Of a stretch of DNA of 64,000 nucleotides, positions 47,633 through 47,989 are shown in pieces. Position numbers and translations under genes: made by a program. Each line of letters begins with the position of its first letter. Within the stretch, counting starts at the first letter, position 1. Origin of the DNA: Ktedonobacterales bacterium (lineage in GTDB: Bacteria > Chloroflexota > Ktedonobacteria > Ktedonobacterales > DATBGS01); assembly GCA_036557285.1 (NCBI GenBank), contig DATBHW010000040.1:1-64000 (forward strand), read 5' to 3'. Under the pieces are notes generated by a model. It was not told the DNA's origin. It saw only the letters and a list, made by a program, of their open reading frames with translations, and ran no database searches.

Positions 47633-47674
47633 CTCCCCTAAATAGGGTATTTGTCTCCCCTAAATAGGGTATTT
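47633..47674. repeat. Two tandem 20-bp operator-like repeats, 22-bp period
   Basis: CTCCCCTAAATAGGGTATTT occurs at 47633-47652 and again at 47655-47674, exactly. Each unit carries an inverted repeat CCCTA-AA-TAGGG. The 22-bp period puts both on one face of the helix. They lie 81-122 bases upstream of the secreted-protein start, and the second overlaps the 3' end of the LuxR-type gene. Likely a binding site for a dimeric regulator, possibly the LuxR-type protein itself. Confidence 0.7.
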
Positions 47675-47989
47675 TGCCCAAATCATTCTCTTACGCCCGC
47701 TTGCTCTCTCTCTCTCTCTCTCTCTCTCTCTCTCTGGGTCTTCATTATTGAGATCGATCAGTCCCAGCTTTTGCCCAACTCTGACGGCCATGAGGCGATT
47801 GTGTACACCCAGCTTGTCAAAGATCGATTTCATGTGGGTTGCGACGGTCTTGTCGCTCAGGCAGAGCGCTGCGGCTATTTCTTTGTTCGATAAGCCGCAG
47901 GCAAGCCATTGCAGGACTTGAAGTTCTCTTGGAGTGATGAAGGGGATGGTGTTCGCTGGTGTTGTGAGGGGACGGAAAACCTGTTTCAT
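47660..47989 (-). CDS. LuxR-type (GerE) HTH regulator with repetitive C-terminal tail
   Basis: 109 residues. The GerE HTH is complete in ITPRELQVLQWLACGLSNKE, IAAALCLSDKTVATHMKSIF and DKLGVHNRLMAVRVGQKLGL (residues about 18-75). No receiver or sensor domain is present, so it is a stand-alone DNA-binding protein. The tail is encoded by a (CT)16 tract and reads as Glu-Arg repeats (ERERERERERA), ending WAKYPI within the tandem repeat. Repeat-length change would alter or shift only this tail. It is upstream of and co-oriented with the secreted-protein gene. Confidence 0.85.
   Translation of the reverse strand: MKQVFRPLTTPANTIPFITPRELQVLQWLACGLSNKEIAAALCLSDKTVATHMKSIFDKLGVHNRLMAVRVGQKLGLIDLNNEDPERERERERERASGRKRMIWAKYPI
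47704..47735. repeat. (CT)16 microsatellite in the LuxR-type gene
   Basis: Thirty-two bases of uninterrupted CT on the plus strand (GA on the coding strand). It encodes alternating Glu and Arg in the regulator's C-terminal tail. Dinucleotide tracts of this length are slippage-prone, so the reading frame after the HTH domain may vary between cells. Confidence 0.95.

Follow-up and report, generated by a model that had tools for sequence, protein, structure and literature searches.

We propose that the uninterrupted CT tract found in the window (the whole 64,000-nucleotide stretch of DNA that was analysed) is, rather probably, a tolerated microsatellite, born by slippage at the 3' end of a regulator gene of the ordinary GerE type. 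According to this model, slippage would have enlarged the tract just beyond the conserved helix-turn-helix (HTH) fold, at a place where insertions are presumably tolerated, and the current frame would read the tract as (ER)n and terminate inside the repeats upstream of the next gene. Gain or loss of a CT unit would then swap only a short nonconserved tail and leave DNA binding intact; therefore, a length change should affect the regulator only slightly, without turning it on or off. The regulator itself would most likely act on the neighbouring secreted-protein gene via two palindromic 22-bp repeats, a link that we infer. The regulator and the tract are the following:

47660-47989, minus strand: stand-alone GerE/LuxR-type regulator gene, 109 aa, stop codon TAG at 47660-47662, with GerE as the sole recognised domain
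47777-47938, minus strand: GerE HTH domain, residues 18-71 (Pfam PF00196, E = 8.7e-21; AlphaFold pLDDT)
47704-47735, plus strand: perfect (CT)16 microsatellite of 32 bases, read as (AG)16 on the regulator coding strand

A first-pass annotation of this DNA had described an uninterrupted (CT)16 lying after the HTH in the coding sequence of a LuxR-type regulator, and this description was confirmed: the perfect tract enters the open reading frame (ORF) at codon 85, 3' of the HTH, where it encodes an ER run. By a first-order Markov model of the window, the expected count in 2 x 5.1 Mb is about 6e-14 for (CT)16 and about 8e-4 for (CT)8, and the former value excludes a chance origin of the tract. A whole-genome scan revealed that (CT)16 is the longest CT tract of the 5.1-Mb genome and that a single further CT/GA tract reaches 8 units or more, a (GA)10 on contig C52. 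Among the perfect arrays with 1-6-base units in 574 kb sampled from the genome, none was comparable in length, the next dinucleotide tracts being (GA)10 and then tracts of 6 units. Among 47 genomes of the order, four contain a (CT)10 or longer and the tract of the window is the longest, while long CT/GA tracts in the other genomes fall mainly in spacers or at gene ends. Taken together, (CT)16 is a genuine microsatellite that probably grew by replication slippage. As the genome is a draft assembly in 82 contigs, the exact length of the tract might instead be an artefact of assembly or polymerase, with the true gene ending in another frame; we find this most improbable, given that a single short read easily covers 32 bases, that the sequence on either side is unique and that several genomes of the order have shorter tracts of this kind. 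In one genome of the same order (G010), an (AG)10 at L089:1501-1520 occupies the ribosome-binding-site position of a methyltransferase-like gene, ending 8 bases 5' of its ATG.

The regulator had also been described as stand-alone, and indeed its 109-aa ORF carries GerE only, with no receiver, sensor or ligand-binding domain. A remnant of a full-length response regulator was considered and ruled out by the presence of stops in the upstream frame. AlphaFold assigned pLDDT values above 90 to residues 21-70 and values of 50-69 to the tail, in which a helix is placed with low confidence at residues 85-97. By sequence profile and fold, the core of the regulator matches solved structures of GerE and of related domains. 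GerE of Bacillus subtilis (PDB 1fse) is likewise a single-domain GerE/LuxR HTH protein without receiver or sensor, and its core matches in sequence as well as in fold; at 74 aa, however, it has no repeat-encoded tail, unlike the regulator of the window. These features suggest an ordinary GerE-type regulator, for which DNA binding and control of transcription are predicted, by way of the candidate operators described below.

To place the tract with respect to the fold, we relied on an alignment of 26 proteins, in which the conserved part ends at a GLI motif (residues 76-78 in the window). Most relatives terminate about 1-10 residues past GLI, which is where the tract starts in the window, and in two of them (L011 and L021) the tails run 23-24 residues past the motif. 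A scan of genome contigs for relatives suitable for comparing the tract yielded only distant LuxR domains. Because the tract starts where most relatives' proteins end, the tail of the regulator is, on the alignment and the predicted structure, seemingly a lineage-specific add-on of low confidence. The recognised GerE fold lies wholly before the tract, and no part of it is frame-dependent. These two observations weaken the earlier suggestion that the tail may matter for dimerisation or stability.

Setting the tract to 13-19 units in silico gave proteins of 98-111 aa with the HTH whole in all three frames, in agreement with the earlier statement that a one-unit change shifts the frame and alters the tail only. 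After the ER run, the tails are ASGRKRMIWAKYPI, QAGVRE and SKRA, and the last two end at stop codons of their own:

47683-47685, minus strand: stop codon of tail QAGVRE, used at +1 or -2 units
47691-47693, minus strand: stop codon of tail SKRA, used at -1 or +2 units

Of the properties expected of a phase-variable contingency locus with a coding microsatellite, a long perfect repeat, beyond chance and with units that shift the frame, is present in (CT)16; slippage is not predicted to abolish or grossly alter the product, as the HTH is kept and only the tail differs. In oipA of H. pylori, a CT repeat in the 5' coding region switches the protein on and off (PMC10564699). The likeness is a CT dinucleotide repeat within coding sequence, in which unit changes shift the frame, whereas the tract of the window stands at the 3' end, where only the tail would be altered and no domain lost.

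We also considered how readily the tract would slip. The genome encodes two MutS1-type and two MutL-type proteins, all scoring above curated cut-offs:

C64:26775-29537, C10:13939-18325 and C57:90021-91682: MutS1 and MutL genes, one pair adjacent on C10 and the others apart

Functional mismatch repair normally restricts dinucleotide slippage. Because two MutS1 and two MutL genes are present, rapid slippage is unlikely, and frequent switching should not be assumed by default. Together with the HTH being kept in every frame, this speaks against the initial view of the locus as the usual setting for phase variation. A version of that view, in which slippage among three tails would tune how the regulator dimerises, how stable it is or how it binds partners, could draw on the different tail that each one-unit change yields and on the (GA)10 that ends another small HTH gene, where unit changes alter the length of the product. 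The tails are nevertheless short, without a conserved counterpart and predicted with low confidence, and the genome holds two sets of mismatch-repair genes, so that we judge C-terminal phase variation to be unlikely.

The second tract, which the first-pass annotation did not mention, was examined in its own context:

C52:122091-122110 (L102:3091-3110), outside the window: (GA)10, forming the last codons (FERERERE and stop) of a 91-aa XRE-type HTH gene

This XRE-type protein carries an HTH_31 domain (E = 8.8e-13), and in its closest relatives the protein ends no more than about 10 residues from the point where the tract starts. Upstream of the gene, and divergent from it, another gene encodes a matrixin-like protein that is predicted to be secreted (Pfam E = 2.7e-4, narrowly missing the cut-off). 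When (GA)10 was changed by 1-2 units, the predicted product became 107-109 or 156-158 aa long, versus 91 aa. Both long CT/GA tracts of the genome (2/2) thus end small HTH genes near a secreted-protein gene. That both stand at HTH gene ends is notable, and two cases are too few to separate a rule from insertion tolerance. A broader hypothesis would be that this lineage varies regulator tails, or the spacing to a neighbour's operators, through slippage in GA tracts that terminate single-domain HTH genes at their 3' ends (the GerE-type gene and the XRE gene of C52), a 3'-end kind of phase variation by which a regulator would be tuned and not lost; we regard this as decidedly unlikely.

Downstream of the regulator, the annotated presence of an adjacent secreted-protein gene held, with an ORF running from 47552 to 46389 and a signal-peptide-like N-terminus, judged by eye, from the GTG at 47552. 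This gene, its neighbour and the two repeats that precede it are as follows:

46389-47552, minus strand: predicted secreted protein gene, 387 aa, likely GTG start at 47552, AAGGAGG at 47562-47568
45683-46300, minus strand: lipoprotein-like gene, downstream of the secreted-protein gene, with the same gene arrangement at the secreted-protein homologue in genome G036
47653-47674, minus strand: first 22-bp repeat AAATACCCTATTTAGGGGAGAC, palindrome CCCTA-TT-TAGGG at 47658-47669, candidate operator
47631-47652, minus strand: second 22-bp repeat AAATACCCTATTTAGGGGAGGC, palindrome at 47636-47647, candidate operator

One clear homologue of the secreted protein was found among the 47 genomes of the order, in G036 (43% identity), and 400 genomes sampled from the phylum added one further weak match only. 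Its predicted structure, based on an alignment of two sequences, is unusable (mean pLDDT 33). The lipoprotein-like protein and its G036 counterpart share 35% identity over 172 aa. No LuxR gene stands beside the G036 homologue, none of the 47 LuxR matches of that genome falling within the 12 kb examined, and the region upstream of this homologue has no repeats in common with the window.

The two 22-bp tandem repeats, also absent from the earlier description, both carry the palindrome CCCTATTTAGGG, so that two perfect inverted repeats are centred 22 bp apart, 79-122 bp upstream of the likely GTG start of the secreted-protein gene. The frame-0 stop of the regulator falls within the first of these repeats, while the other two frames stop earlier. 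The pattern CCCTAWWTAGGG has no further copy in the genome. The repeats are plausible operators for the adjacent regulator, and the case is suggestive only: a rough composition estimate predicts about one palindrome of this kind per genome, and the second copy arises from tandem duplication of the first.

This arrangement raises the question of whether the tract might act in cis, its length altering transcription of the secreted-protein gene through spacing or DNA shape upstream of the palindromic repeats. In N. meningitidis nadA (PMC2791445) and in H. pylori sabA (PMC4081817), a repeat near regulator sites tunes expression. What the window shares with both is a simple repeat that precedes a surface- or secreted-protein gene and lies near regulator-binding sites, here candidate ones: the tract ends 30 bases from the first 22-bp repeat and precedes the start of the secreted-protein gene by about 150 bases, and the genome contains no other copy of the palindrome. 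In the window, however, the operators are only predicted and are situated on one side of the tract, downstream, such that the tract is not placed between known elements; moreover, it is translated. In addition, no sigma-70-like promoter was found by a consensus scan, and the estimate of about one palindrome per genome, with duplication of the second, applies here as well. By analogy, an action like that of nadA and sabA could occur only if the 22-bp repeats truly serve as operators and the length of the tract influences how they are used, and we consider a cis effect improbable.

Several observations run counter to the preferred reading of (CT)16 as a tolerated microsatellite. A perfect 32-base tract, unique in the genome, is odd if neutral. 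The second tract is also at the end of an HTH gene near a secreted-protein gene, a pattern that neutrality does not predict. Furthermore, the tails of 23-24 residues in L011 and L021 indicate that a tail is not without precedent, and AlphaFold places a low-confidence helix at residues 85-97. If the length of the tract varies and matters, a simple repeat would here tune the tail of a regulator, or a spacing, and not the presence of the protein. If not, a long coding microsatellite would be tolerated past the end of a fold, and the case would advise caution in diagnosing phase variation solely from how long a repeat is.

Additional repeats were noticed elsewhere in the window. A 45-bp direct repeat with one mismatch (48148-48192 and 49399-49443) spans the 3' ends of two distinct genes for membrane proteins, one at 48169-48498 and an EamA-like one at 49420-50343, whose products both end in LVVKS. 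The two copies flank a SurA-like gene and a small membrane-protein gene, as if a segment of 1.2 kb had been inserted or duplicated. Finally, ribosomal-protein-like ORFs at 759-1766, 1797-2588 and 6020-6490 carry long acidic, Glu-rich insertions or tails, encoded by degenerate GAG/GAA repeats.
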